Source of the DNA: a virus
Direction: 5' to 3' (one strand)
Length of the DNA: 41,496 nucleotides
Virus record (IMG/VR): IMGVR_UViG_3300037847_005438
Span: 1-41,496 of that record
The notes under the pieces were generated by a model. It was given only the letters and a program-made list of their open reading frames with translations, had not been told where the DNA came from and did not search any database. Both the position numbers and the translations under genes were made by a program. How positions within the stretch are numbered: position 1 is the stretch's first letter; the number at the start of each line of letters is the position of its first letter. This document shows, in pieces, positions 1 through 34,900 of this stretch.

Positions 1-1373
1 CTGAAGGTCCTGAGTTTATGCCTCAAACTGGTAAGCAAGAAAACACAATACAGTTTAATTACTTTATGGGTGATCAGCTTATTAATGTTAAGTACCGTGA
101 CGGTAGAAAAAACTTTAAGCTTTATAAAGGCGCTGAAAAAGTATTTTATAATATTAATAGTATTGTAGGGTATGATACTTGCGTGATAACTGAAGGTGAA
201 ATGGACGTATTAGCGTTACACGAAGCTGGTATACCAAATGCTATTTCAGTACCAAATGGAGCTACGTTAAATAATAACAACTTAGATTACTTAGATAATT
301 GTATTGATTATTTTGATGACAAGACTAGAATTATATTAGCAGTTGATGCTGATGAACCTGGTCAAATGTTACAACGAGAACTTGTTAGACGTCTTGGAGC
401 AGAAGTGTGTTACCTTATAGATTTTAACGGTAATAAAGATGCTAACGACTTTTTGTTAGAACACGGTGCTGATGCGCTGCGTAATGCTATACACAACGCG
501 CGACCTGTACCACTGGAAAATGTATCAACCTTAAAAGACGTAGAAGATGAACTCAGAGACTTTGTTAAAAACGGTTTTAAACCCGGTTATCAAATTGGAC
601 TTAAAAACTTCGATCAAATATTTTCAACTTACACTGGTCAGTTCATTACTGTTACTGGTATTCCTAGTAGTGGTAAGTCTGACTTTGTTGATCAAATGGT
701 TGTTGGTTATAACAATTTATACGGTTGGAAAACTGCGTATGCTAGCCCTGAAAATCAACCGGTCTACTTACATGCGCACAAGTTAATGCGTAAACATTGG
801 CAGGATATGCCAAGGACAGATGATATTGGTAATGACAAATGGCAACAAGTAACTAATCATGTAAATGATAATTATTTCTTTATCGATATGGATAAATATA
901 GTTTAGAGTCTGTGTTGCGTAAAGGTGCTGAGCTAGTTAAACGTAAAGGTATTAAATGTTTAGTACTTGATCCGTTTAATAAAATTAGAGATATAGATGC
1001 TAAATCAGATGATGTAAACCGTTACACAATGGATTATCTAGCTAAGATCGAAGCTTTTTGTAAAAAGTATGATGTGCTCACATTTATTGTTGCGCACCCA
1101 ACTAAAATGTATAAAACAAATGATGGAAAAATTGAAGAACCTACTATGTACAATATTAAAGGCGGTGGTGAATGGTATGATGCTAGTTATCATGGTTTAT
1201 TGGTACACCGTGATTACGATGCTAAAACCACCAAGGTTAAAGTGCTCAAAGTTAAATTCCAAAACCTCGGTGAAAACGGGGCTGAAAGTCATTTTACTTG
1301 GGAGCCTCGTTCTGGTAGTTTTGTGCCTCATGTAACTGATGAAGCAGCTGCTGAACCAATGCCTTGGGAATAA
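1..1373 (+). CDS. DNA primase-helicase (T7 gp4/DnaB type), 5' partial
   Basis: Bifunctional replication protein that primes and unwinds DNA at the phage fork. The frame is open to the left edge (codons from position 3), so the Met at 18 is probably internal and the zinc-binding part is outside the window. Numbered from that Met, a TOPRIM domain spans about 50-160, with the E-G-E motif at 59-61 and D-x-D at 110/112. The helicase follows: Walker A GIPSSGKS at 214-221, a Walker B-like strand ending in D318, a conserved H360, and an arginine-containing strand near 398. This order matches the T7 gp4 and mitochondrial Twinkle family. The stop codon overlaps the next start (TAATG), so the two are translationally linked. 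Domain calls are from visible motifs and function is well established for the family. Confidence 0.9.
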   Translation, partial: EGPEFMPQTGKQENTIQFNYFMGDQLINVKYRDGRKNFKLYKGAEKVFYNINSIVGYDTCVITEGEMDVLALHEAGIPNAISVPNGATLNNNNLDYLDNCIDYFDDKTRIILAVDADEPGQMLQRELVRRLGAEVCYLIDFNGNKDANDFLLEHGADALRNAIHNARPVPLENVSTLKDVEDELRDFVKNGFKPGYQIGLKNFDQIFSTYTGQFITVTGIPSSGKSDFVDQMVVGYNNLYGWKTAYASPENQPVYLHAHKLMRKHWQDMPRTDDIGNDKWQQVTNHVNDNYFFIDMDKYSLESVLRKGAELVKRKGIKCLVLDPFNKIRDIDAKSDDVNRYTMDYLAKIEAFCKKYDVLTFIVAHPTKMYKTNDGKIEEPTMYNIKGGGEWYDASYHGLLVHRDYDAKTTKVKVLKVKFQNLGENGAESHFTWEPRSGSFVPHVTDEAAAEPMPWE

Positions 1374-1642
1374 TGGCTTTTAAACGATGGCAAAAATCAC
1401 CTAGTAGAAAAGCTCCTGAGCGAAATTGGGAACAACAAGAAATGAAAATAATTGGTTGGTGTTTAACTAGAAATATAGGTGTTGGTATAAGTCCAGATTG
1501 GAAAGATGATTTAAATAGATGGAAAATAACTATAGATATTAACGGTAAATATTATGACGATCCAAACTTATATGATAATGAAGAAGTGTATAACAAAGTT
1601 ATAGAATATTACAAATACTATTATGATAAATACAATAAATAA
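1373..1642 (+). CDS. Small hypothetical protein
   Basis: An 89-residue protein that I do not recognise. I chose the ATG at 1373, which overlaps the upstream stop as TAATG, over the upstream TTG at 1364. The N-terminus is basic (about residues 1-18) and the C-terminus is very rich in Tyr, Asp, Asn and Lys, ending in a run of Tyr/Lys. No signal peptide or membrane segment is visible. It sits between the primase-helicase and the thymidylate-synthase-fold gene, overlaps the latter by 20 bases, and so belongs to the same early operon. Its role is unknown. Confidence 0.65.
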   Translation: MAFKRWQKSPSRKAPERNWEQQEMKIIGWCLTRNIGVGISPDWKDDLNRWKITIDINGKYYDDPNLYDNEEVYNKVIEYYKYYYDKYNK

Positions 1643-2279
1643 TAAAGTCTTTAGAAACGCAAACGAAGCCTATGAATATGTACATGATCAAATACTACAA
1701 TATGGTATAGATTTCGCTAATACTAAAGCATTGTTTAACGTAGGTTTTTATATAACAGATCCTATGGACAACAAAATAATAAATAAAGAACGTAATTGGA
1801 AACCTGATTATGCCGAGGCTGAATGGCAGTGGTATTTAAAAGGTGTTCCATATGTTTTTGAACTTGGTAATATATACGGTAAAATACCTGAAATATGGAA
1901 ACGTATGGCTGATGACTCTGGTAGAGTTAATTCTAACTACGGTTATCAATGGAACCGTAACGGACAGCTAGATAGAATAATACAAATGTTACAAGACAAC
2001 CCTGATAATAGGCAGTGCGCAATATCTATATACGACGGTAAAGAAATTGACGATTACAGTCACGACACGCCTTGTACTTACGCTGTACAGTTTACAATAT
2101 TACATGGTAGATTAGATATGTGTGTTACAATGCGTAGCAATGATCTTTGGTATGGTTTTTGTAATGATCAATATTGTTTCTCTAAGCTGCAAAAGATGGT
2201 CTCTGATAAATTAAATATTGAACCGGGTGTATATTATCATTTTGCACATAATATGCATTTATATAATGATAAAATATAA
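1623..2279 (+). CDS. Thymidylate synthase-fold enzyme, probable dCMP hydroxymethylase
   Basis: Folate-dependent enzyme that adds a one-carbon group to C5 of a pyrimidine nucleotide. Visible family motifs: E66 in an EWQWYLKG segment, NSNYGY at 103-108, the catalytic Cys151 in DTPCTYAVQF, the phosphate-binding RSND at 171-174, and a terminal H-x-x-HLY at 209-214. The segment after RSND reads GFCND. Asp182 falls where thymidylate synthases have the dUMP-reading Asn, and T4 gp42 (dCMP hydroxymethylase) has the same GF-x-ND arrangement. I therefore infer dCMP as substrate. Only one Arg (129) of the usual Arg pair is present (NRQ). At 218 residues it stops soon after HLY, about 30 residues shorter than T4 gp42. 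Alternatives: an ordinary thymidylate synthase or a dCMP methyltransferase. It overlaps the previous gene by 20 bases and shares its last base with the next start. Confidence 0.78.
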   Translation: MINTINNKVFRNANEAYEYVHDQILQYGIDFANTKALFNVGFYITDPMDNKIINKERNWKPDYAEAEWQWYLKGVPYVFELGNIYGKIPEIWKRMADDSGRVNSNYGYQWNRNGQLDRIIQMLQDNPDNRQCAISIYDGKEIDDYSHDTPCTYAVQFTILHGRLDMCVTMRSNDLWYGFCNDQYCFSKLQKMVSDKLNIEPGVYYHFAHNMHLYNDKI

Positions 2280-3070
2280 TGTATTATTTATATCATATAC
2301 CAGGCAAAAAGATTGGTGTAACAACTAATCTTGAAGAACGTGTTCACAAGCAACAAGGATATTATCCTGGTGAATACGAAATAATAGAAACATCTGATGA
2401 TATAGATTTTATATCTTTAGGTGAACAAATAATGCAAAAGTGCTACGGCTACAAAGTAGACGAAGTACCTTATAATAAACTTAAATTTAATAATATGAAA
2501 ATAAACGTAACAGAGCAAACAACAACATTTCCATATCCAGTAAATAAACTAAAAGGTCATTTAGTTGATAATTTAGGTATGGAGTGGGATACAGAGTTTG
2601 GAAAAGTATTTTTAACTCACCAATCAATTAGTTGGATTATGAAAAATATTAAAACATCTATGTATAATGATAATAGATCTTATGTGTATAATAAAGCATT
2701 TGCTAGATGGTTTGATAATAACAACGCTTATCCAAGAACAGGTGGTATAATGTCAGATCATAAAAAAACATGCGAAACAATGTGTAGATTTGATAAGATT
2801 AGATTATGGGCAGAAGATAGAGGTTTATATCACAAAGGCGATCCTAAAACTCAAACATTAAAGTTAATGGAAGAAGCTGGTGAAATATGTAGAGCTGTAC
2901 TTAAAAAAGATGAAGAACAAATTATAGATGGTATTGGTGATTGTGTAGTTGTATTAACTAACTTAGCACATCTTGCAGGTACTAGTATTGAAGAGTGTAT
3001 TGATTCTGCATATAACGAAATAAAAGATAGAACAGGTAAAATGAGTAACGGAACATTTAAAAAAGATTAA
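2279..3070 (+). CDS. GIY-YIG domain fused to MazG-type NTP pyrophosphohydrolase
   Basis: Two-domain protein of 263 residues. Residues 1-60 look like a GIY-YIG nuclease core: YLYHI then KIGVTTNLEER, giving the catalytic-type Arg21, with a candidate metal-binding Glu49. Residues 60-165 are unassigned and rich in Asn and Lys. Residues 168-263 are a MazG-like all-alpha pyrophosphohydrolase: LMEEAGE (E198, E199, E202) and DGIGD (D217, D221), followed by a hydrophobic helix. MazG enzymes hydrolyse (d)NTPs to (d)NMPs with metal. Beside a dNMP-modifying enzyme and an RNR this suits nucleotide pool control, while the GIY-YIG half could nick DNA. The start overlaps the upstream stop (TAATG). The MazG half is clear; the GIY-YIG half is shorter and less certain. 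Confidence 0.75.
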   Translation: MYYLYHIPGKKIGVTTNLEERVHKQQGYYPGEYEIIETSDDIDFISLGEQIMQKCYGYKVDEVPYNKLKFNNMKINVTEQTTTFPYPVNKLKGHLVDNLGMEWDTEFGKVFLTHQSISWIMKNIKTSMYNDNRSYVYNKAFARWFDNNNAYPRTGGIMSDHKKTCETMCRFDKIRLWAEDRGLYHKGDPKTQTLKLMEEAGEICRAVLKKDEEQIIDGIGDCVVVLTNLAHLAGTSIEECIDSAYNEIKDRTGKMSNGTFKKD

Positions 3071-3072
3071 TT

Positions 3073-3384
3073 ATGTCAGATAGAGAAATTATGGATTCAA
3101 AAAACGGTATAAGCTCACGTAAAGAATATGCTTTTAGAGATCCAGTTGTTAGAAACGTTTGTGATAAGTTTGTGTCGCGATCAGATATTGGTTATGAAAA
3201 GTATGGATCAACATTAGACGATGAGCGTAGATTTAAAATGAAAGGTCTTCAAAAATATCTTAACGATATACAAGAAGAACTAATGGATGCTGTGCTATAC
3301 ATACAAGCTGCGCGTGAAGAGCTTCAAGACTTATCTGAAGAGGCTTTAATAGATAAGTATAGGTATGATGAAGAAGAAATATAA
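3073..3384 (+). CDS. MazG-like / all-alpha NTP pyrophosphohydrolase family protein
   Basis: A 103-residue, largely helical protein. The segment from about 38 to 82 (SDIGYEKYGSTL, then YLNDIQEELMDAVLYIQAA) resembles small phage nucleotide pyrophosphohydrolases, whose EEL-x-DA-x-xY helix supplies metal-binding acids. No second ExxD helix is obvious, so the enzyme may need a partner or be inactive. It lies two bases after the fusion protein's stop and overlaps the nuclease gene by 20 bases, so it belongs to the same operon. A role in converting dNTPs to dNMPs is inferred from family resemblance and from the neighbouring HMase-like and RNR genes. Confidence 0.6.
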   Translation: MSDREIMDSKNGISSRKEYAFRDPVVRNVCDKFVSRSDIGYEKYGSTLDDERRFKMKGLQKYLNDIQEELMDAVLYIQAAREELQDLSEEALIDKYRYDEEEI

Positions 3385-3817
3385 AAGAAAAAAACGTGGT
3401 CCCGTTAGAGCTAAAAAAGTCACATTTGACGGGATCATGTTTGCTTCTGGTTTAGAAAAATATATGTATCAAGCTTTAAAAAAAGCTAAAATACATTCTG
3501 TATATGAAGGTGCAACATTTACTTTACAAGAAGGATTTAAATTAAAAAACGAAAGCTACGAAAGGCAAAGTAATGGTAAGGGTGAAATGGTAAATAGAGG
3601 TTGTAAAAAAATATTACCAATAAAATACACACCTGATTTTGTAAGTAGTTCATTTATAATTGAATGTAAAGGTAGAGCAAATGAAAGTTTTCCAATGCGT
3701 TGGAAAATGTTTAAAAAATATGTAAATGATTGTTTACCTCATGTAACTTTATATAAGCCACAAAACCAGAAGGAATGTGATAAAGTTGTAGAATTAATAT
3801 TAAACAAAAGTAAATGA
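3365..3817 (+). CDS. PD-(D/E)XK endonuclease (T7 endonuclease I / DUF1064-like)
   Basis: A 150-residue nuclease with a strongly basic N-terminus (residues 3-18). It has the order expected of small phage PD-(D/E)XK enzymes: Glu31 in SGLEKYMY, Asp91 in KYTPDF, and Glu100/Lys102 in IIECKGR. In T7 the analogous enzyme resolves branched DNA and helps degrade the host chromosome, and a similar role here is inferred. Two ATGs at 3365 and 3368 are possible starts. The gene overlaps its upstream neighbour by 20 bases, and its stop overlaps the RNR start as ATGA, so expression is probably coupled. Confidence 0.8.
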   Translation: MMKKKYKRKKRGPVRAKKVTFDGIMFASGLEKYMYQALKKAKIHSVYEGATFTLQEGFKLKNESYERQSNGKGEMVNRGCKKILPIKYTPDFVSSSFIIECKGRANESFPMRWKMFKKYVNDCLPHVTLYKPQNQKECDKVVELILNKSK

Positions 3818-5685
3818 TAGATATAAATAATAAAATTCTTTCTGATATTACAGTGCATATGAAATATGCTAAATATATACCAGAATTAAATAGAAGAGAA
3901 ACATGGGAAGAACTGGTAACCCGTAATAAAGAAATGCACCAAAAAAGATACCCAGAATTATATAATCAAATTGAAGAAACATACAGATATGTCTATAAGA
4001 AAAAAGTTTTACCAAGTATGCGATCGTTACAGTTCAGCGGCAAACCTATCGAAATTAGTCCAAACCGTCTTTACAACTGTAGCTACTTACCTATCGACCA
4101 TGTTGATAGTTTTAGTGAGTGTATGTTCCTTTTGTTATCTGGCTGCGGTGTTGGTTATTCTGTTCAGCAGCATCATGTAAAACAATTACCTCACATAACA
4201 AAACCTTTTAAAGGTAGAACAAGAAGATTTGTTATAGGTGATTCAATAGAAGGTTGGTCAGATAGTATTAAGGTTTTAATTAAGTCTTATTTGGGCTCTA
4301 AGAGATCATCTAAGATAAAATTTGATTATTCGGATATTAGGCCAAAGGGTGCACGTTTGGTTACGTCTGGTGGAAAAGCACCAGGACCTCAACCACTAAA
4401 AGAGTGTTTAGTAAAAATTAAAGGTATATTAGAAAATCAAAACGATGGAGAACAATTATCAACACTTGATGTACATGATATTATTTGTCATATTGCTGAT
4501 GCTGTGCTTGCTGGTGGTATTCGCAGAGCGGCTCTTATAAGTTTATTTTCAGCTTATGACGAAGAAATGATTTCGTGTAAGTCAGGAAGTTGGTGGGAAC
4601 AAAACCCACAAAGAGGTAGAGCTAATAACTCTGCTGTACTAATAAGACACAAAATAACAAAAGAATTTTTCTTAGATTTGTGGAAACGTATTGAATTATC
4701 CGGATCTGGTGAGCCTGGTATATATTTTAATCACGATAAAGATTGGGGAACTAATCCTTGCTGTGAAATAGCTTTGAGGCCTTATCAGTTCTGTAACCTG
4801 TGTGAAGTTAATGTAAGTGACGTCACAAACCAGGAAGAATTTAACTCAAGAGTTAAAGCCGCAGCTTTCATCGGTACGCTTCAAGCAGGTTATACGGAAT
4901 TCCACTATCTAAGAGAAATATGGCAAGAAACAACAGAGAAAGACGCACTTATAGGTGTGTCAATGACAGGAATCGCGAGTGCCGCTGTGCTCCCGCTGGA
5001 TATGAAGGCAGCTGCAAGCATAGTAAAAAGAGAAAACACAAGAGTAGCAAAATTAATAGGAATAAATAAAGCCGCTAGAACAACATGTGTTAAACCAGCT
5101 GGTACTACATCTTTAGTATTAGGCACTAGTTCAGGTATTCACGCTTGGCACAACGATTATTATATTAGAAGACTTCGTGTAGGAAAAAACGAAGCAATAT
5201 ATAATTATTTAAAACAAAATCATCAAGATTTAATAAAAGATGAATATTTTAGACCACATGACACTGCTGTGATAGAAATACCACAGTCAGCTCCAAAAGG
5301 TTCAATATTAAGAACTGAGTCTGCTTTTGACTTACTTAAAAGAGTTAAAAAAGTTGCTACCGAATGGGTTAAACCTGGTCACAGAAATGGATCAAATACT
5401 CACAATGTGTCTGCAACAATAAGTTTAAAAGAAGATGAATGGGATAAAGCTGGTAAGTGGATGTGGGATAATAGAGATTGTTATAATGGTCTCTCCGTGC
5501 TGCCTTACGACGGTGGTACATATACTCAAGCTCCTTTTGAAGATATAAATAAAAAAGAGTTTGAAAAGTTAGTTAAACACTTACATGATATAAATTTAGA
5601 AAATGTAAAGGAAGAAACTGACGAAACAGATCTATCTGGTGAATTAGCTTGTACCGGTGGATCTTGTGAAATAACAAGCTTATAA
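3814..5685 (+). CDS. nrdJ: Class II (adenosylcobalamin-dependent) ribonucleotide reductase, RTPR type
   Basis: Reduces ribonucleotides to deoxyribonucleotides using a cobalamin-generated thiyl radical. At 623 residues it is the size of monomeric class II enzymes, and no small radical subunit gene is nearby. Visible active-site residues: Cys89, which would pair with Cys327 (11 residues after the radical Cys, the same spacing as in the Lactobacillus enzyme), and NPCCE at 314-318 giving Asn314, thiyl Cys316 and Glu318. The barrel strand IGVSMTG is at 380-386 and the phosphate-binding CVKPAGTTS at 425-433. A flexible tail ends in ACTGGSC, so Cys613 and Cys618 can re-reduce the active site via thioredoxin. 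The last residues TSL follow that pair. The enzyme needs B12, so the host must make or import it. The start overlaps the nuclease stop as ATGA. Confidence 0.93.
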   Translation: MIDINNKILSDITVHMKYAKYIPELNRRETWEELVTRNKEMHQKRYPELYNQIEETYRYVYKKKVLPSMRSLQFSGKPIEISPNRLYNCSYLPIDHVDSFSECMFLLLSGCGVGYSVQQHHVKQLPHITKPFKGRTRRFVIGDSIEGWSDSIKVLIKSYLGSKRSSKIKFDYSDIRPKGARLVTSGGKAPGPQPLKECLVKIKGILENQNDGEQLSTLDVHDIICHIADAVLAGGIRRAALISLFSAYDEEMISCKSGSWWEQNPQRGRANNSAVLIRHKITKEFFLDLWKRIELSGSGEPGIYFNHDKDWGTNPCCEIALRPYQFCNLCEVNVSDVTNQEEFNSRVKAAAFIGTLQAGYTEFHYLREIWQETTEKDALIGVSMTGIASAAVLPLDMKAAASIVKRENTRVAKLIGINKAARTTCVKPAGTTSLVLGTSSGIHAWHNDYYIRRLRVGKNEAIYNYLKQNHQDLIKDEYFRPHDTAVIEIPQSAPKGSILRTESAFDLLKRVKKVATEWVKPGHRNGSNTHNVSATISLKEDEWDKAGKWMWDNRDCYNGLSVLPYDGGTYTQAPFEDINKKEFEKLVKHLHDINLENVKEETDETDLSGELACTGGSCEITSL

Positions 5686-10350: not shown

Positions 10351-12936
10351 TTATTTTATTATTTTTCTTTGTACTGTTCCATCGTTATATATATAAAACA
10401 GAACTTGATTTTTAATTTCTTTTGTAGGTCTTCCTAATAAATCTGTTATTGTTACTAATTTTTTAACCTCTCTTTTTAACAATGGTCCAGACCAACCATC
10501 ATAACAATGATTGTACGTAGCTTGACATATTGTATCCCACTCATTTTCGCAGCAATAATCATCTACTGATAATACCCAGGCATAACAAGGATCGTTTAAC
10601 CAGTAAGGTATACCCGGCCCAGTTATACACTCAGCATCATATAAACAAGATAAACTATCGTTTACGTTTGCTGTTTCGTCATAGTTATATGCGTTAACAT
10701 CCATACATCCTTCAACCACAGATATACACGAACCATTGTCAGTATTAGCCATTGGATCATAGTTAAAAGCAGTACTATCCATACAACCGTAAATATAAGC
10801 AATACAACTAAAATCTTCCGTATTTGCTTGTGGATTATAATTAAGCATGCTAGGATCAGTACAGCCATAAATAAACGGTATACAAGAGTTGTTGTCAGCA
10901 TTAGCAAGAGGATTAAAATTAAACATAGTTGAGTCTGTACAACCAAAAACATAAGGTTCACAACTACCATCATCAGCGTTAGCTAGTGGATTGTAATTAA
11001 ACATTGTAGGATCAGTACAACCATACAAATATGCTATACACGTATCTGGTGTATTAGCATTAGGATTATAATTGAAAGCTAAAGGTTGCATACATCCATA
11101 AATAACAGGTATACATCCACTATTATCTACATTAGCAGTTGAATCATAATTAAACGCTGTAGAGTCCATACAGCCAAATACAGCTATATCTATACATGAG
11201 CCATCATCAACACCAGCTATATAACCTTGTGTGTAATATTGTAAATATCCTGGATTAGTACAACCAGGATTATAATAACAAGTATCATTAGTATTTGCTA
11301 AAGCGTTATAGTTATAAGCTAAAGTGTCCATACAACCTAAAACTACAGGCACACACTCAACACCACAAAAAGGATAAGCTTCATATATGTCTAATTCACT
11401 TCTATAATGTCTTAATTTATTTTCATTTGGACCAGGCCAAGGGTTATTACCTTCATATATTATAGTCCCATAACTATTTTCTACTTTAAATGAATTTTGT
11501 ATTGTTTGTATATCTAATTGTTGTGCGTTTTGTTGAGGTGTAGGTATTTCAAAGTAGTAAAAATAAACTTCATCATTAGAATTAAGATTTAAAGCAAATG
11601 TATCAGAATATATACCGTTTTGATTTATTCTAAACTGCCACAATGAATCACCTTGTTCAACACCTAACCAACAAGCACCCCATGAATCACCACCATCATC
11701 ATATAGTATTAAATCATAAGTACAAGGTGAAGTTCTTAACATGCGATCTGCATTAGGATCGTAATTAAAAGCAGCTGGATCTGTACAGCCATAAGTAGCT
11801 AATGTAACACAACTACCATCATCAACAGTAGCTAGCGAATCATATTCTAAGTAACTAGGTGTTGTGCAACCATATATTATAGTGTCATTATTACATTGAT
11901 CGGATATATAAGGGTTAGAAGAATCTGTATAACCAAAATTAGGTGGATTTAAATAAAATATTGTATCTTCACAATCTATATTTGTAACTAAGCAACTTCC
12001 AACTACTGAACCACCACCTATACCATCTCCATAGGTATCATTAATAGTAAAAACTATTGTGTCACCTACAGGTATACAAACTTGTGTGTGTATTGTTTGG
12101 CCCGTTTGTGTGTAATTGTAAGTTCCAGATGGTACAGAATATATTATATTTCCATTAGCAGTAACATCCCAAGATGTTTCACTTGGCCAATTATCTAATT
12201 TTATAGCTACATCAATCAAAGACTCAGTAGAATCACAATTAATATCTTGTATACAGCTACTGTCATCTACGTTAGCCCAAGGATTATAATTTGTAGCCGC
12301 AGGATCTGTACAACCAAAATAATAAATACAACTACCATTATCATGGGTAGCTAATGGGTCATAGTTAGAGGACACTGTATCTGTACAACCGTATACAACT
12401 GTATATGGATTACTAATCATTATATCATCTATACATATATCGCTAGTATAACTAGATCCTGTTATAGCTTTAAATTTTATTTTAAAAGGTGTTATTGGCG
12501 TTATTGGATAATAAGCTAATTTCCATTGATCTCCTTGATTTCCAGATATAGTGTCTAAAGCGGTGTAACCACTAGAATCTACTATGCCAACCTCTAAATC
12601 ACCCATAGCAGCACCATACATATGATACCAAAACGATAAAACTTTACCAGGTGTTTGTGATATATCAAACATTGGTGTATATATCGTAAAAACTTTACCA
12701 CCATAGTTTTGACCAGAAGATTCTACATAAAAATAAATACCACTACCTGTTGTGTGATCTCCAGATGGTCCAGTGTTAAAAGAACTTGTTGGTCCCTGCA
12801 TTAACCACCAATCACCAAAATCATTAGCATCTTGCTCCAAAGCAATACCATTTTCAAAATCATAAATCCAAGGAAACTGATTTATTTGTGAAAAGCTAAA
12901 TATAGGTAATAATAATAGTAGTAATAATTTTTTCAT
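10351..12936 (-). CDS. T9SS-secreted, repeat-rich adhesin-like protein with MAM-like domain
   Basis: An 861-residue exported protein with these parts: signal peptide 1-17 (MKK, Leu-rich, ending FSQ); a MAM/jelly-roll-like domain about 24-175 ending DDIMISN; thirteen Cys-containing repeats of about 23 residues, with a GC-T/M-D-P-x-A-x-NYNP half and an AN-x-DDGSC half, in groups at 182-229, 355-405 and 533-765; two inserted domains of the kind found in secreted Bacteroidetes proteins (about 234-325 with DTYGDGIGG, and 405-520); a Cys-rich block 784-811 (C-x(10)-CC...C...C); and a C-terminal 824-861 T9SS type A sorting domain (TDLLGRPTK...FYIYNDGTVQRK). Acidic D/N-rich turns in the repeats may bind calcium. 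Such proteins are normally carried through the host T9SS to the cell surface. This is a host-type gene in the middle of phage late genes and probably acquired. Adhesion or surface modification is inferred. Confidence 0.88.
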   Translation of the reverse strand: MKKLLLLLLLPIFSFSQINQFPWIYDFENGIALEQDANDFGDWWLMQGPTSSFNTGPSGDHTTGSGIYFYVESSGQNYGGKVFTIYTPMFDISQTPGKVLSFWYHMYGAAMGDLEVGIVDSSGYTALDTISGNQGDQWKLAYYPITPITPFKIKFKAITGSSYTSDICIDDIMISNPYTVVYGCTDTVSSNYDPLATHDNGSCIYYFGCTDPAATNYNPWANVDDSSCIQDINCDSTESLIDVAIKLDNWPSETSWDVTANGNIIYSVPSGTYNYTQTGQTIHTQVCIPVGDTIVFTINDTYGDGIGGGSVVGSCLVTNIDCEDTIFYLNPPNFGYTDSSNPYISDQCNNDTIIYGCTTPSYLEYDSLATVDDGSCVTLATYGCTDPAAFNYDPNADRMLRTSPCTYDLILYDDGGDSWGACWLGVEQGDSLWQFRINQNGIYSDTFALNLNSNDEVYFYYFEIPTPQQNAQQLDIQTIQNSFKVENSYGTIIYEGNNPWPGPNENKLRHYRSELDIYEAYPFCGVECVPVVLGCMDTLAYNYNALANTNDTCYYNPGCTNPGYLQYYTQGYIAGVDDGSCIDIAVFGCMDSTAFNYDSTANVDNSGCIPVIYGCMQPLAFNYNPNANTPDTCIAYLYGCTDPTMFNYNPLANADDGSCEPYVFGCTDSTMFNFNPLANADNNSCIPFIYGCTDPSMLNYNPQANTEDFSCIAYIYGCMDSTAFNYDPMANTDNGSCISVVEGCMDVNAYNYDETANVNDSLSCLYDAECITGPGIPYWLNDPCYAWVLSVDDYCCENEWDTICQATYNHCYDGWSGPLLKREVKKLVTITDLLGRPTKEIKNQVLFYIYNDGTVQRKIIK

Positions 12937-23578: not shown

Positions 23579-25486
23579 TTATATTTCTTCTCCTGGAATT
23601 AAACTTAAAAAATCTTCACTAAAAAACTTATTCATATCCTCTGCTCCTTTAACAGTAGCAGCGTCTCCTGCTTGAAAAGTATAAACTACTGTATTAGTTT
23701 CTTTATCAACAACCTGTATAGTATTGTTAGTTATTACCGTAGAACCAAATAATCCGCCAAATCTAGGTTCTTTTCTATCCATACCCCCGACTAAATAGTA
23801 TTTCTTTAAAAAGTTTTCTCCATAAGCTTTTGTTAACTCTTGTTCTATGTTTTCCTTATTACTTAACATATTTTTACTAACACCAAGTCCAGTGCCTCCT
23901 TCATCTTTTTTTGTTTTAGTATCTTTTGCTATTTTTTGGTCAAATACAGAATAACCTTTATCAGTTAATTTTTTTAATCCTTCTATTTTAGCAATATCTT
24001 TCATACTAATTCCATCTTTAATATCTAAACCTAGACCCTCTATACTTTCAACTTTTACACCACCATCATAAGCGAACCAGTTTTTACCGTCCCATCTATA
24101 TTCAAAATATTCTCCCAAAACTTGTTCTTCAAAATTTAAAAGATCGTTTCTTCTTTTTTCTAAAGTACTATAATCAACTTTTTTACCCCCTTGCCCTATA
24201 CCACCAGTAGAAGGATATTCAACTCCCCAACCTAATGATCTAGCGGAAACACTAGTGTCACTATCATCGTTACCAGCATTTTTTGCTAACGCTTTTTGTC
24301 TAGCACCAAATTCAAAGTTTAATTTAAATTTTTTATCTGCATAATCTATAATAGCTTGTTTTGAAAAATCACTTTCACCACTTAACAATGAACCAGTAAA
24401 AGCCATCCACTGGTTGTTTATTTCTTCTTGACTAATACCACCGCTATTATCAGTATCTTTAATGTTTGCTAAAAGCTTACCTCTTTGACCTGTTGCAACA
24501 GCAAGTTCGCCTTTTACTTCGCCAGCAGCTAAATCTTTCATCATTAAAGTCCATAAACCAGCTGTTTCTACGTTTTCCTCTCCCTCAGTTATATGTTCAT
24601 AAAAAGACTTATTATCAATACCAAAAGCGGTTCTCATTAATCTTCTTCTATCATTAGCTGTATTTGTCATATTGTTTAAAGCTCCCCTCATTTTACCAGA
24701 GTGATATTTACCGTATTCACCACCGTAAGTAGCACCTAAGTTTTCAGCTGAAGTTGAAAGCTCATTCATTGCGTTACCATAAACGTTTTCTTTGTCTGCA
24801 ACGTTTTCTGTTAATAATGATTGAAAATCACGTAAACTTATAGTTCTAGTTGTACCGTCAGAATATGTAGCTTCACTACCATCTTCATTGTATATTGTAT
24901 ATGACAAACCACCATTATCATCTTTGGTAATTCTAGCGTAATGACCAGCTACAGTAATTTTATTATTAGTATTACTAGCTATAATAGCATTAAGTGTCTC
25001 TTGCTTTTCAAGACCCATTAGATTGTAATCAAGATTATTACTTTCTACAGCTACAGCAGCATTATCTAAAGCTTCTCCCCATTTGTCTATTTCAGAAAAT
25101 AATTTATTTTTTCTAGTAAGTATTTCCATACGTTTTTTCCTAGTATCTCTATTACCAAAAACACCACTTAAAGGACCTAGTTCTCTTAACTCATCTTTTA
25201 AAGCGTAAATTTCATTAACAACATTTTCTGTACCTCCAGCATCATAAACTTTTTGCACAGCACTATTCCAGTCTATAGAGTTTTTTATTAACTCACCTCC
25301 AATAAGTGCTGAAGCTTTAGCTATTTCACCCCACATTTCACCGCTAGCCTTAACCGTTTCACCATAAACTCTTGATACATCTTCAAAAGTACCACTATAA
25401 TCAGGTGGAGCCGCGGCTAAACCGGCTCTAGTTGCTGCTGCTACTATTGTAGCATCTGCACCTGTTGTTATTTTAGTATTTGCCAT
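23579..25486 (-). CDS. Internal/structural virion protein with EF-hand
   Basis: A 635-residue protein of a type I associate with structural proteins of marine podovirus-like phages (N-terminus MANTKITTGADATIVAAATR, then APPDYSGTFEDVSRVYGET). It is mainly helical, with Ala-rich segments near the start. A textbook EF-hand calcium loop lies at 344-355 (D-T-D-N-S-G-G-I-S-Q-E-E, with Asp1, Asp3, Ser5, Gly6, Ile8 and Glu12). It sits between the Hint-bearing protein, which it overlaps by 19 bases, and the giant polyvalent protein. By position it resembles T7 internal core proteins. The exact role is not shown by the sequence. Confidence 0.75.
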   Translation of the reverse strand: MANTKITTGADATIVAAATRAGLAAAPPDYSGTFEDVSRVYGETVKASGEMWGEIAKASALIGGELIKNSIDWNSAVQKVYDAGGTENVVNEIYALKDELRELGPLSGVFGNRDTRKKRMEILTRKNKLFSEIDKWGEALDNAAVAVESNNLDYNLMGLEKQETLNAIIASNTNNKITVAGHYARITKDDNGGLSYTIYNEDGSEATYSDGTTRTISLRDFQSLLTENVADKENVYGNAMNELSTSAENLGATYGGEYGKYHSGKMRGALNNMTNTANDRRRLMRTAFGIDNKSFYEHITEGEENVETAGLWTLMMKDLAAGEVKGELAVATGQRGKLLANIKDTDNSGGISQEEINNQWMAFTGSLLSGESDFSKQAIIDYADKKFKLNFEFGARQKALAKNAGNDDSDTSVSARSLGWGVEYPSTGGIGQGGKKVDYSTLEKRRNDLLNFEEQVLGEYFEYRWDGKNWFAYDGGVKVESIEGLGLDIKDGISMKDIAKIEGLKKLTDKGYSVFDQKIAKDTKTKKDEGGTGLGVSKNMLSNKENIEQELTKAYGENFLKKYYLVGGMDRKEPRFGGLFGSTVITNNTIQVVDKETNTVVYTFQAGDAATVKGAEDMNKFFSEDFLSLIPGEEI

Positions 25487-26700
25487 GTTTGTTCTTTTTT
25501 ATATTTTATAGCGTAATCTAACCATTCATCAATCATACTGTTTACTGGAATACAATTAATTCTATAACCTAAATCTTCTGTTAATAAATCATAACTAAAC
25601 TCAACACCGTCATAAAGTTCTTTACTTTCAACGTTTTCTGTTATGTGCATAGCGCGCTCACCTTTTATTCTATGCATGTCACAAAGATTAACAACCGCGC
25701 CGTTTTTGAATTTAATTTTATAAAATCTTTTCTTAGTAGGATCTTCTAAGTATTCATGTTTTTGTAATACTTTTACAGGCACACCACTATAACCAATTAT
25801 AGTATCACCTGGTTTAATATTTTCAATAAATACTTTGCCTTCAACAGTGTCTATTTTAGTACCTTTAGGTATACATGCTGTACCAGCTTTAATTTTAGCA
25901 GCACCTAAAGTAGCACCAGCACCGATTAAATCACCTAAAAAACCCATTTTTGAACCAGCTCTTTGACCAGCGGCGTTAGCTTGCATACCCATAGCAGACA
26001 TTTGATTTGCCATAGCTTGAGATAAAGCCGCGTTAGCGCCAGCCATTAATCCAAATTCAACACCTAGCAATGTAGATTCTCTACCAAACTCAGCTTGTTG
26101 TATAGCCGCTTCACCTTGTCTTCTCATTGTATCTGCTTGAAAACCACCTTGAGCAACTAGCTGTTCTCTTGATATACCTAACGCTCTAGCTCTTTCAGCA
26201 CCTTGTAATTCCATTTGCCTAATAGACATTTCTCCTTGAGCAGCTAACCTTCTATTAGCAGATTCTTGTTGAGCTATGTTAGCAGATATTTGTTCTGCTT
26301 GAGCTGCGCCTTGATTTGCTAATGATTGGGCTAATGATGCTACACCACTAGCACCAGCTGCACCTCTTAAAGTCTGTAATATGTTTGCTCTTTGTAAAGC
26401 ACCTTGTTCTGCTTGAAACTCAGCAGCACGCATGTTAACAGTTAGATCTTCGTATGGATTTTCCATACCTTCATAAAGATTTTCAAATTCTGTTTTTAAA
26501 TCAGCGTAAGGATTTTTTACATCAGCAAAAGGATTTTCAAACTTAAAACTTTCAAATTGTTTTCTTTGTTGTTCTAAAAGTTCTTTTTGTTCAGCTCTTT
26601 CGCCTTCAAAAAACTCAAGTTGCTCACCGGCCATATCGACCATTTGTTGCATTATGTTTTTTTGTTGATTCCTGTCTTTACCTCCAAATACATTTGACAT
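25468..26700 (-). CDS. Internal virion (ejection) protein with C-terminal Hint domain
   Basis: A 410-residue protein. Residues 1-100 hold charged helices and repeated NP-F/Y-A/E-D segments (ENPFADVKNPYADLK, then ENPYEDL). Residues 100-270 are an Ala/Gln-rich helical stretch (LRGAAGASGVASLAQSLANQ and following) ending in a Gly/Ala hydrophobic segment, like small phage core/ejection proteins. From Cys276 a Hint domain begins: ACIPKGTKIDT, then IENIKPGDTIIGY at 292-304, then NLCDMHRIKG with His343, and finally SYDLLTEDLGYRI and PVNSMI at 369-390. Hint domains self-cleave at their N-terminal Cys. There is no intein-like His-Asn and no C-extein, so protein splicing is unlikely; autocleavage or ester formation before Cys276 is possible. 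It overlaps the next gene by 19 bases. Confidence 0.8.
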   Translation of the reverse strand: MSNVFGGKDRNQQKNIMQQMVDMAGEQLEFFEGERAEQKELLEQQRKQFESFKFENPFADVKNPYADLKTEFENLYEGMENPYEDLTVNMRAAEFQAEQGALQRANILQTLRGAAGASGVASLAQSLANQGAAQAEQISANIAQQESANRRLAAQGEMSIRQMELQGAERARALGISREQLVAQGGFQADTMRRQGEAAIQQAEFGRESTLLGVEFGLMAGANAALSQAMANQMSAMGMQANAAGQRAGSKMGFLGDLIGAGATLGAAKIKAGTACIPKGTKIDTVEGKVFIENIKPGDTIIGYSGVPVKVLQKHEYLEDPTKKRFYKIKFKNGAVVNLCDMHRIKGERAMHITENVESKELYDGVEFSYDLLTEDLGYRINCIPVNSMIDEWLDYAIKYKKEQTWQILK

Positions 26701-28937: not shown

Positions 28938-31900
28938 TTAATAAGGACTACTACCTGAACCACTACCACTACCACTACCACTACTACTAGTACTACTAGC
29001 ACTACTACTACTACCACTACCACCACCACTACCACTAATAAAATTAGATTGTTTTGATAAAACTACACCTAAACCTTGAACACTAAAATCTTCTAAATTA
29101 ATCATGTAAGGAAATGACGCTTGTGGAACTGTAGCGTAAATTCCAGCGGTCGCACTTACAACACCAGTTATATTACTAAACCATTTACCTTCTTTACTTT
29201 TAAACTCTAATATCTGAGCAGCTTGACCTTCGTTTTCTTTAAAATGACTTTTTGATCCACTGTTGTTTCTTATAATATCTGCATACCAACCATTAACACC
29301 AATAGAAGTTCCGTCTTCCCAGTCATTAGTAATAATATGTGTTGCGCCATCTATGACTTCCTCTGAATTTTCGTAATACCTTCTTGATAAACTTCCCTCA
29401 TAATTTAACGTGTGAAAAGTTTTTACTATAGAAGGTTCATCGTTAAAAATAGTTGTAACATGAGATGGTGTAAATTCGTTATAAAAAGTATTATAACCGT
29501 TATTTAGGCTTGCTGTATAATGTTCATATAATTTACCATCTAGTATTGTAAAGTATTTATTAGAAACACTAATACCGTTTTCAGGTATAAATGATTTAAA
29601 ACTTACCCAACCTTTGTTTTCTTCATTAAAACTTATTGTTTTTTCATCATACGGAACCATTTGGCTTACCGTCTGGAGATAAGTTGGAGAGTTTACGTCT
29701 GTGTCAAAGTAGGATTCAGTAGTGTATAAAGCCTTTTGCATGAAAAAGTTGTCTACTTCACCTTCAACTGGTCCTTCTAATATTTGTACAACAAAAGTAT
29801 TTAGTAATTCTCCTCCAAAGTGATCTATAGCTGTACCAGTTGTACCGTTTTCAGATTGCCAATTTAAAGCTCCACTATCATTAATTTCAGTTCCATTTTC
29901 ACCAACGCGGTGTATTTTATCATAAACACCAGTAGGGTTTGTGTCATCAAAACTAATAACGTCTGTTCTAAAGCCTTTGTTAGAACTACCTTCTGACGTA
30001 AAGTAATATATTCTAATTCTTCCAGACGTTAAGCTGTAATTAAATCTTATTCTATAATAACTAGATGGTTTTATTCTTTTATTTATAACTTGTCTTATTT
30101 CTGTAAAATCTGGAGCATCATTAAGTTTTATTTGATTATTTTCAAAGAATATATATTGTGCTGCCTGCAAGTCAAAACCTATAAACTCCCAGTAATCAAC
30201 AGATCCACCTGTTATAAAATTTGATCTATCAATTAATCTTAGGTCAGACAAATCGCAAGTCATCAAAACTGGAGGGGTAGATGATGCATTACTTGTATAC
30301 AAGTTGTCATTTCTAAAACTTATACTATTTTTATTAGGAGCCGCATCTTGATGTGTTTCATTTAACCAATTAGTACTAGGTGTATACGGTTGTTCATTTT
30401 TAGTTATAGAATTTATAGTACCATCAAAATTAAAATCTGTTTTATAAATACCATCTTCGTCAATATACATAGTTAATTTATAACCACTATCAACACTACC
30501 ACCAGGATTGCTTGCAAAATAAAGATCACTTCTAAGCTGTATTTTTAATGTGTCACCTGAGTGATTGTCTACTCTAATTCTAAACTCATAACCATCTACA
30601 GATGGCTTGACACTAATAGGTGTTGATAATGATGAAAAATCTTGTAAAAATATTTGCCCAGGCGCGGTAGCATCTACAAATCTTACTTTATCTCCTTCTA
30701 AAAACAATCTTCTTTGCGAAAAAGCGTGTGGCGTCATAGCGTCATCACCACCACCATAATCTGGTAATTTCCAAGTGGTAGGTGTAGGTGAGGTTGACCA
30801 AACTACATTTTGACCACTGTTATAATCCATACTAAAACTATCAACACTACCACCAGTTTCTCTTTCTGAAATATCCCTAACATTTATTATATCAATTTTA
30901 CCACTAAAATTATAAAATTGTAATCTTAATCTACCATCATTGTTTTGTACGTTATAACTGTCAGGATGTATTTTTACAACAGCTCTATACAACACAGAGT
31001 TGGCAGGCGCAGCTCCATTTGCATAATAACCATTAGATTCTATAGGTATTAAATTATAACCATGTAATTCATTCCAATTTGAATAATCTATTGGACTTAA
31101 TAATATAAAACCTCTGTCATCACCAGGGCTAGTATTATTGTTAGTAGGATTGTTTATAGAACCAAAAGTACCATAAGGTATATTGCTATCATAAAAATTT
31201 TGTGTATCAAAATGACCAGAACCACTAACGTTAACACCTGGTTCAATTAAGCCTCTTGCTAATATACCTGTATTTGAAGGAGGGCTGTGAAGAACAGGAT
31301 CAATAACAACAACATCTATCATAACCCATTTATCAGCAGTTCTTAATAAAGGTATATCAGCAGTATGCGTTATATAAACACTACCAGTAGTTGTTCTTGA
31401 ATCTATTTCTATTTTATCAGATCCATTGTTAATAACACCGTCAGCTTGATCACCTGGAACTATAACTCCATTTGGATTTGGATCATCCCAAGTGTGAACC
31501 GTACCGTTATCATCTGTCATAGAAGTTTGATTTATTACAGGGTTTTCTTGACCAAATTGATTTATTGCTTCTATGTGTTTAGTTGCAAATTGATCGCCAG
31601 ACTGAAAGGTAAGATTCCAAGAAGACGAAGTAAAATCGTGAGAAACTTCAGTCCAAGCAGGTACAGTAGCTGGTGGAATATCACCAAATGTTGGTATTGC
31701 AGGTTGGCCAGTATAATAAATACTATTAAAAGAAAGTATTTTTTCAACTTTTGCACTTGCTAATCTCATTGGTTTTTGAAAACTTTCACCAGGTTTATTT
31801 GTGTTTTTTACTCTGAACTTTAAGTCTTGAACAGCAATACCTTGATGTACATTTAAATTAGCCGCTAAACTACTCGCTGATCTTCTAAATTTAACGTAAA

Positions 31901-34900
31901 AAGTTAATCTCGCAACACCAAGCGAAGCATTAATACTATCTAAGGCAAGTGCTTGCTGAGAATGGTTACTACCACTACCATTCCAAGTTACAGTGTTACC
32001 ACTAACAAAACCTAAATGAAATTGAGTGTTAGTTTGGACCGTGCCAGGGTATCCTGGATTAAAATTATGACCTTCTATTTGGTTTTGCGCTAAAGAATAT
32101 TTATTAACAAAAGGAGTTGTTCCTGAAGACGCTGTCCCAAATGCTTTTCCGCCTTGTCTAAATATTTTATCACTATCAACAGGAGTATTACCATCACAAA
32201 TTATAATTTGAGGTACACAATAATTTGATGTTGAAGTACCACCGGCTTCTACTTCTATTGTAACTTTAAATTCTTCACCATAAAAAGCTGTTAAGTTGTT
32301 TGCGCTATCATAAGCACCTATTGTTTCACCATTTGTAAAACCTGGATTCCAACTAGATTGTATGTTCCAAGCTGGATTATTAGAATTCCAAGAAGATACA
32401 GTTGATTCTACAAGATTAGTTGGCATTGTACCTGAAGTATGTGTAAATGGAAATAAAGCATACTTAGTCTCACTACCAGATACAAGATTGCTACCTGCTG
32501 CAAAAACTAAACCAGCATAAGCATCAGACCCACCAAAAAAACCGTCTTGATCATCAAATATACTACCAATAAGATTACTATTTAAAAGTGGCATTTCGAA
32601 CCAAGTGGTGTTAACACCAATAGTTTCGTGATAGGATTTGTTATCATTATATACTTGAGCTGTTTGATTAGCAACTGATCTAGCCCAAACATAACCGTCA
32701 CCAAAAAAATCAACAGTTGGATCATTATGAAAAGGACCACTAGTACCGTAATTAACAGCTGTTGTTTGCCCAGTGCTAACGCCAGAAGGTGCAGACGTAA
32801 AATTATGATCAAATATTGTTTTTGTAGTAGTGTCAAAACCTACAAAAGATTCAGCTACAAATGGTTGTCCAGTTTGAGCTTGTTGGTACTGCCCTTGAGG
32901 TATAGCCGCGTAGTTAGTTACAGTTGTTTGACTATCTAAATGTCTAAGCGTAACTTCAGGAATATTGTTATAAGAAGAACTATTTACACTATTTACACGT
33001 ATTTCGGTTTGATTAATTTGAGTTCCAGAAGCAAAACTACCATTTTCAATAACATTACTAGCGCTAGGCGTTAAATTAATTAACTCTTCACCAGCTGTTA
33101 TAAATGAGTTTCTTAATAAATTTTGTGTAAAGTTATTTGTAAAAGTAATATTATATTCTTTTTTATACTCATCATATGTACCAACTAATTCATTTGGAAT
33201 TTTTAAATTATCTCTAAACCAATCACGCATACCAATATTTGATATAGGTGTTAATCCATCCATAGACAATCTAAGAACCGCGCCTCTTTGTTTATCTGTG
33301 AAATAAGCTCTATAAGATTCTGAGGCAAAACTTTCTGGGTTTTTTGATATACCGTAATCACCAACAAAAGGTGTTGCTGTACCTAAAACCTTATTAGACG
33401 CGATTAATTGTGGATTACCATCCGCATTAAATAGTGTATCTTTACCAGCTACTATATCTACTATTCTATCTTCACAAAAAGCAACCAATCCAACTCTTCT
33501 TTGAAATAACTTTTGTATACTACCGTAAGTTGGGTTTAAGTCTTTTGTTATTTTTTCAGCCATTATAAACTGATTAAGATCGTTTACACTAACGTCAGCA
33601 TTGTATATACCAGAATAAATTAAACCATTTGTCCTTGTTTCTTCTTGATAATTAGATTCTAAAGTAGAAGATACTATTGGTCCTTTTGATATAGTCATTT
33701 CGTTAAAACCATCTCTTATTCTATTTGATTCAATACCATTACCAAAAGAAAAACAATTATACCAACTCAATCCAACTTCTAAATCTCTACCTATATTTGA
33801 ATCTATATAAAACCTTGTTCTTAACGTACTAGTGCTAGTAAGTGGTGATCCACTACTAAGTGTTCCTGCTCCTAAAGTGTTACTAGGATCTGATGGTTGT
33901 GCTGATAGTAAAGCTGTAGTGTAGCTACCATCTTTCCTATAAAACCTAACTTTAGTATTAGAATAATCAATTTCATCGTTAGCATTGTCTAAAAATTGCC
34001 AACCTGGTTTTATTTCAAACTCATTTTTACTTATCCATCTAGTAATAACGCTACCAGTATAATTATAATTTAAGTTTTCAACTCTACAACCTACAGGAGC
34101 AAATATTTCACAAGTATTATCGTTAAGCTTAATAGGTATAACATCGCTAGCTTCGTGATATATATCTAAATCAATACTTTCTTTTGGCTCTGTTTCCCAA
34201 ATTATAGGTTGCTCAGAATTTACCTCTATAAAACTAGTTGCTTGTTCTATAAATTGAATAGCAGAACTAGTATCAAGATCTATATTAGTACCGTCTACAG
34301 GATTGTATGTTGAGCTTTTTGGATTTTTATCTACTTCTATTATATAACAAAGTCTTCTATTGTTAGCTCTACCAAAATCTCTAATAGTATCTTTAGCATG
34401 AGCAAGCTTGTCATCGTTACCACCACTTGAACCATCAGGTACATGGTTTCCATCAGAATCTACAGTGTCAGCCCAATCCATTACAGCTTTTTCGACAGAA
34501 TCAGAACCTTGATCGTATAACCAAGGTGTGGATCCACCCCAATATAATTGTTTTTTCCAACCGGTGTGGTTGTATAGTTTTTTTATTGAAACTTTTTTTA
34601 TAGTATAAATTTCTTCATTTGAATCAGCTTCAAATTTAAATTGTTTACCAATTTTTAAATTATCTATAAAACTTTGTATTTCTTTAGCATTTTCATTACT
34701 TTTTTTCCAAGTTGGATTCCATTGGTTTTCGTGTCTTTCTTTATATCTTTCATCATAACCAAAAGAATTTTTTACACCTGGACCTGGTGCTTCGTTTGTT
34801 GATTCATCAAACTTAACCGCTTCACCGTTAAAAGCCATTTCAACTGTATCTCCAATACCGTCCTCATAATCTGTTTTACCTTCCATAGGGACTACTATTT

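Follow-up and report, generated by a model that had tools for sequence, protein, structure and literature searches.

The open reading frame at positions 1623-2279 of the window, by which we mean the whole stretch of 41,496 nucleotides analysed, very likely encodes a phage dCMP 5-hydroxymethylase that would act like gp42 of phage T4, the chemistry being assigned by analogy with the T4 enzyme. This identification rests on a full residue set, namely Asp148, the Ser104/Tyr106 pair, Glu67 and a missing C-terminal tail, and not on the pyrimidine-reading Asp182 alone. The window represents bases 1-41496 of a 66,932-base IMG/VR record, the last approximately 130-131 bases of which repeat the first, the last base excepted, so that the genome looks complete. 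The gene and its diagnostic codon are located as follows.

1623..2279, plus strand: predicted dCMP 5-hydroxymethylase of the thymidylate synthase fold, ATG start, 218 aa, containing VTMRSNDLWYGFCNDQYCFSKL; key residues E67, W92, S104, Y106, R130, D148, C151, T152, M170, R171, S172, D174, G178, D182, H212 and Y214
2166..2168, plus strand: GAT codon of Asp182, the pyrimidine-reading residue, equivalent to Asp179 of T4 gp42 and Asn177 of E. coli ThyA

Numbered from Met1, Arg171, Ser172, Asn173, Asp174 and Asp182 belong to the motif M170-R-S-N-D-L-W-Y-G-F-C-N-D182. The first-pass annotation had proposed that in the GFCND motif following RSND an Asp replaces the Asn with which thymidylate synthases read dUMP and that T4 gp42 has the same replacement, and both proposals are borne out by a multiple alignment which places Asp182 in one column with ThyA Asn177 and T4 Asp179. 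The family alignment, consisting of the window and 80 IMG/VR contigs (62-82% identical) drawn from 522 candidate sites, shows Asp in this column in 81/81 members; as the equivalent residue is also found in six additional relatives on MAG contigs (54-64% identical), it is kept in all 87 sequences, which excludes a sequencing error or chance. Likewise invariant in 81/81 members are, with the T4 counterpart in brackets, E67 (E60), W92, S104 (S94), Y106 (Y96), R130 (R123), D148 (D145), C151 (C148) and T152 (T149), as well as M170, S172, D174, G178, H212 and Y214, while the phosphate-binding Arg171 is a Ser in a single one of the 81. The changes from ThyA His147 to Thr and from ThyA Gln165 to Met are common to the window and T4, and the equivalents of the catalytic Cys, Glu60, the phosphate Arg, Asp171, His216 and Tyr218 (T4 numbering) are all present in the window protein.

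In the ternary complex of the T4 enzyme (dCH), Asp145, three residues before Cys148 and equivalent to a Leu in ThyA, constitutes together with Ser94/Tyr96 the signature of hydroxymethylation, and the C-terminal tail with which ThyA seals its active site is absent (PMC6400193). In the family under study, Asp148 is located three residues ahead of the catalytic Cys151 and the Ser/Thr-x-Tyr element reads S104-N-Y106, each in 81/81 members; the ThyA-type tail is missing, the window protein and 60/81 members stopping four residues past H-x-Y as compared to 55-59 residues in ThyAs. For Ser94 of T4, sequence alignment gives Pro92 as the ThyA partner, while Val93 is its partner in space (PMC6400193). 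The residues Ser172 and Arg130 of the window are, upon alignment with MilA, those of the MilA double mutant A176S/K133R, which carries deoxy-type residues (PMC6400193). Furthermore, of the thymidylate synthase positions 177 and 147, which best separate cytosine-modified from unmodified virome contigs (MetaGPA, 2021; PMC8670742), position 177 is of the modified type in the window and position 147 is the Thr of T4 and not His.

Searches against known structures point in the same direction. With phmmer, no PDB chain matches the 218-aa protein better than T4 dCMP hydroxymethylase (E 1.6e-17); second comes MilA, a CMP hydroxymethylase, with ThyAs ranking lower, and the stretch from Met170 to Asp182 is paired with 'mrsndvvfgfrnd' of T4 gp42. 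The AlphaFold2 model, built with 26 family sequences (pLDDT 90.8, pTM 0.89), places Asp182 in the helix 175-196 right after the MRSND strand, and, judging by the alignment and the common fold, the residue would lie close to the base. With this model, Foldseek ranks MilA first with T4 dCH and ThyAs close behind, and VIA-align gives Z scores of 25.0/24.7 for AfhB (9iqc/9iqu) and 24.9 for MilA, a tie with AfhB, followed by the T4 dCH ternary complex (22.4) and E. coli ThyA (21.4; ThyAs about 21).

The invariant residues named above, the fold, the missing tail and the operon were read directly for the 218-aa enzyme, and the proposed chemistry is taken over from T4. By this analogy, Cys151 would attack C6 of dCMP, probably supplied from dCTP by the adjoining MazG domain, Asp182 would read and protonate cytosine N3, and the one-carbon unit would come from methylene-tetrahydrofolate activated through Glu67. 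A water molecule held by Asp148/Ser104/Tyr106 would then attack the exocyclic methylene to give 5-hydroxymethyl-dCMP; no methyl group would arise by hydride transfer, as the protein lacks the tail with which ThyA closes its pocket.

The structural search raised a different reading, a flavin-dependent dCMP 5-hydroxylase (5-hydroxy-dCMP synthase) of the RB69/AfhB type, in which no one-carbon unit would take part and the hydroxyl group would be attached to C5 itself. In Mosigvirus phages, 5-hydroxy-dCMP is the product of a member of the thymidylate synthase superfamily, 5-hodCMP synthase (PMC13390438), and PDB titles call AfhB a riboflavin-dependent monooxygenase, the dCMP hydroxylase of phage HY126. 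The AfhB structures are the top or tied-top matches and similarly compact, and RB69 ORF048, which is nearly identical to 9iqc, likewise carries the cytosine-reading Asp. By sequence, however, AfhB is more distant (profile score 53.8 bits compared with 80.7 for T4 gp42, 90.2 for MilA and approximately 69 for many ThyAs), and RB69/AfhB differs from T4 gp42 by E60F, W82V, S94T, D145E, D171N, G175V and Y218F, at all seven of which positions the residue of the folate enzyme is retained in the window and in its family. Five of these changes, at E60, W82, D171, G175 and Y218, were taken as the hallmark of the flavin type, as deduced from the RB69/AfhB sequence alone, and the window has none of them. 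As none of the seven T4 residues lost or changed in RB69 is altered in the window, a folate-dependent hydroxymethylase is the better reading, and the flavin hydroxylase, very improbable on these residues, was rejected on the alignment with RB69 ORF048.

Very improbable is also a dCMP methylase, the product of which, 5-methyl-dCMP, would lead to 5-methylcytosine DNA as with the ThyA N177D/N229D mutants. According to literature cited in PMC8670742, Asp alone suffices to turn ThyA into a dCMP methylase, and a natural enzyme of this make-up seems to exist in Vibrio phage VAP7; the window protein, however, lacks the tail that closes the pocket for hydride transfer, and in Asp148/Ser104 it possesses a water-activating pair; work on T4 ties this pair and the missing tail to hydroxymethylation. 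The VAP7 protein itself (MK795384, L104:153-1055), of the thymidylate synthase fold, combines the cytosine-reading Asp with a full ThyA tail, has no Asp145 and possesses an Arg at T4 position 94; judged by its sequence, it looks like a natural dCMP methylase rather than a hydroxymethylase. Thus, Asp by itself does not define the product.

An ordinary, possibly degenerate, thymidylate synthase is scarcely credible. The models of Pfam (Thymidylat_synt, E 4e-24), PHROG (four families) and NCBIfam all give the 218-aa protein this name, but the NCBIfam ThyA models score it far under every equivalog cut-off (77.6 vs 327 bits for the best), and the protein departs from ThyA in Asp182, Thr152, Met170, Asp148, Ser104 and the lack of a tail, the residues being invariant in 81/81 members. 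The earlier claim of a hydroxymethylase of the dCMP type and not a thymidylate synthase is therefore supported by Asp182, by Asp148 with Ser-x-Tyr, by the absence of the ThyA tail and by the kept folate residues. Its companion, that a thymidylate synthase label would hide the function, is correct for the Pfam, PHROG and NCBIfam names; the closest GenBank records, by contrast, bear the label deoxycytidylate 5-hydroxymethyltransferase already.

The hydroxymethylase gene is embedded in an operon with the following further members.

18..1373, plus strand: primase/helicase (Toprim and DnaB-like) that opens the operon on its upstream side, with an ORF running on across the record ends
1364..1642, plus strand: small ORF of 92 aa, TTG start, conserved in 56/81 loci
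2279..3070, plus strand: fusion of a GIY-YIG-like N-terminal domain with a MazG-type nucleotide pyrophosphohydrolase, candidate dCTPase, neighbour in 79/81 loci
3073..3384, plus strand: ORF of 103 aa, conserved in 70/81 loci
3365..3817, plus strand: DUF1064/Holliday-junction-resolvase-like nuclease, conserved in 70/81 loci
3814..5685, plus strand: class II (B12-dependent, RTPR-like) ribonucleotide reductase, with class I NrdA/NrdB instead in other group members

The order primase/helicase, small ORF, hydroxymethylase, MazG, 103-aa ORF, DUF1064 nuclease and ribonucleotide reductase recurs in most loci, with a primase near the hydroxymethylase in 70/81 and a ribonucleotide reductase at the same operon position that is of class II in 45 loci and of class I in about 25. 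In the window, the start of the MazG gene overlaps the hydroxymethylase stop by one base (TAATG, 2277-2281). In three loci (L044, L046 and L047) the pair is kept amid otherwise different neighbours with a dCMP deaminase in between, an association with dCMP deaminase having been reported for modified contigs (MetaGPA; PMC8670742). The MazG proteins of these same three loci consist of the MazG part alone, while 76 of the 79 orthologues are, by length, GIY-YIG-MazG fusions. The GIY-YIG-like domain displays invariant K11/G13/R21/E49 and matches Pfam T5orf172/MUG113 weakly, above the cut-off only in L062. With a model of the MazG protein, Foldseek matches are weak (best E 6e-3) and VIA-align shows MazG, PRA-PH and dCTPase structures tied, the matches listed being filled by the MazG domain with no GIY-YIG structure among them. 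As the MazG domain resembles all three kinds of structure to a similar degree, the substrate is not readable from structure; the MazG domain is possibly a dCTPase that supplies dCMP. A MazG/PRA-PH-type gene is also carried by the related Elemovirus elemoA, with no hydroxymethylase in the annotated 34 kb examined of its 61.7 kb, so that the MazG partner is not specific to the pathway.

In all of 34 records the thymidylate synthase fold is represented by a single gene, and ThyX as a second source of dTMP is found in 0/45 records. In MW202828, the nearest annotated genome by terminase (64% identity), ThyX is present (L091:27459-28133) and no gene of the thymidylate synthase fold is annotated. Profiles for enzymes beyond hm-dCMP gave no match to a T4-type dNMP kinase (PF21448) or a T4-type beta-glucosyltransferase (PF09198), each in 0/34 phage records with T4 positive for both, or to a carbamoyltransferase (PF02543, 0/45 records), and neither a DNA polymerase nor a glycosyltransferase is among the 25 commonest families listed for each of the Pfam and PHROG scans of the ORFs of the record. 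The pathway beyond hm-dCMP is consequently incomplete on paper; if hydroxymethylcytosine (hmC) is formed, its phosphorylation and incorporation must fall to the host, a host kinase being assumed for the step from hm-dCMP to hm-dCTP, and any further decoration would need an enzyme not recognised among the searched families. Since the enzyme bears all the sequence marks of the T4 hydroxymethylase, the DNA of this phage group is probably modified. T4 splits two of the jobs concerned, as its dCTPase removes dCTP and its GIY-YIG endonuclease II cuts cytosine DNA. It is conceivable, though unlikely, that a large uncultured podovirus-like group of Bacteroidota phages makes hmC genomes by a stripped-down cassette, in which the hydroxymethylase is joined by a GIY-YIG/MazG fusion that would both remove dCTP and cut cytosine DNA, without a kinase, a polymerase or a known sugar transferase of the phage and with hmC left bare or bearing an unknown group.

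As regards the host, 87 phage records match the large terminase; apart from one uncultured spring-water podovirus, these are phages of Flavobacterium, Cellulophaga, Tenacibaculum or Maribacter, and the tail-type protein of 3166 aa (window 28938-38438) ends in a C-terminal domain of the crAss-type muzzle, in agreement with the initial guess of a Bacteroidetes phage, which would be an uncultured one of marine type. Contigs with relatives of the enzyme have been binned with Flavobacteriaceae, Saprospiraceae and Sphingobacteriaceae and also, perhaps in error, with Aliivibrio and Halieaceae. Among other genes, a protein of 861 aa (window 10351-12936) has a MAM domain and many YGCTDPxAxNYxPxAN...DGSC repeats and an end that resembles a type IX secretion signal, and a probable virion protein (window 25468-26700) has a C-terminal Hint/intein-like segment (CIPKGTKIDTVEGKVFIENIKPGDTI), an obvious C-extein being absent from the ORF. 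GroEL is phage-encoded in L082/L083 (record 53456-55018, minus strand) with a GroES-like ORF adjoining, as in Elemovirus phages.

The closest cultured relatives are Bacteroides fragilis phages (44%), the enzyme of which is annotated as deoxycytidylate 5-hydroxymethyltransferase already, and a narrow combined-term literature query on hmC phages of Bacteroidetes gave no match. New is the widespread uncultured branch of the enzyme family, while the kind of enzyme and the residue logic have been published. Related sites in IMG/VR number at least 522 and would routinely be labelled 'thymidylate synthase'; if they are dCMP hydroxymethylases, modified cytosine is predicted in a common aquatic phage group, with consequences for library preparation, for restriction and CRISPR assays and for the range of defences to be expected of Bacteroidota hosts.

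Compared with T4 gp42, the window enzyme shares the fold, the equivalents of Asp179, Cys148, Asp145, Ser94, Tyr96 and Glu60, the MRSND motif and the short C-terminus, and its genome likewise encodes a dCTPase-like partner. Unlike T4, the protein has 218 and not 246 aa, is only 24-25% identical in structural alignments and has a Cys in place of Arg177, which in T4 binds the folate glutamate tail, and the genome is without a recognised T4-type glucosyltransferase or dNMP kinase. Protein 00032 of the Bacteroides phage BF486P2 is 44% identical over 95%, with the GFCND motif and all key residues, and differs by a slightly longer tail, at 17 aa still short, and by a genome with a different gene order and an extra divergent thymidylate synthase paralogue. 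This very divergent second paralogue (L084:17159-17920) retains the Asp that reads cytosine; in place of the catalytic Glu60 it has Leu, where RB69/AfhB has Phe, so that it may perform other chemistry.

MilA has the same fold (Z 24.9, rmsd 1.7 A), a base-reading Asp and an Asp three residues before the Cys, but possesses the ribo-type Ala176 and Lys133 at the positions of Ser172 and Arg130 of the window enzyme, and its product is, unlike that of the phage enzyme, an antibiotic precursor (mildiomycin). AfhB and RB69 ORF048 (9iqc, 9iqu) share the compact fold, the cytosine-reading Asp, the catalytic Cys and the phage origin, but have lost Glu60, Trp82, Asp171, Gly175 and Tyr218 and changed Ser94 and Asp145, all of which the window keeps. 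The thymidylate synthases of Kuttervirus SH19 and Pseudomonas Ab19, which we take to be dUMP hydroxymethylase-like, also have an Asp three residues before the Cys and differ by Asn at 177/179, Gly94, Asn149, Asn167 and a long C-terminal extension; the 'pyrimidine hmase' of a spring-water phage has Asn179, Gly94 and Asn149 like these two. In a maximum-likelihood tree, the Asp-type enzymes, with RB69, stand apart both from the Asn179/Gly94 group and from ThyA with VAP7 (support 92/82). As this support is modest and several of the branches are long, we do not claim that the Asp type arose only once. A residue table of the T4 type, AfhB type, dUMP type, ThyA type and possible dCMP methylase provides a simple sorting scheme for genes of this fold. 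E. coli ThyA, finally, shares with the window enzyme the fold, the catalytic Cys, the phosphate-binding Arg, Glu58, Asp169, His207 and Tyr209, but has Asn177, His147 and Gln165, lacks an Asp ahead of the Cys and possesses a 55-residue tail, in line with the ThyA controls, which in T4 numbering show Asn179, His149 (Met in the divergent phage ThyA JSF12), no Asp145 and tails of 55-59 residues.
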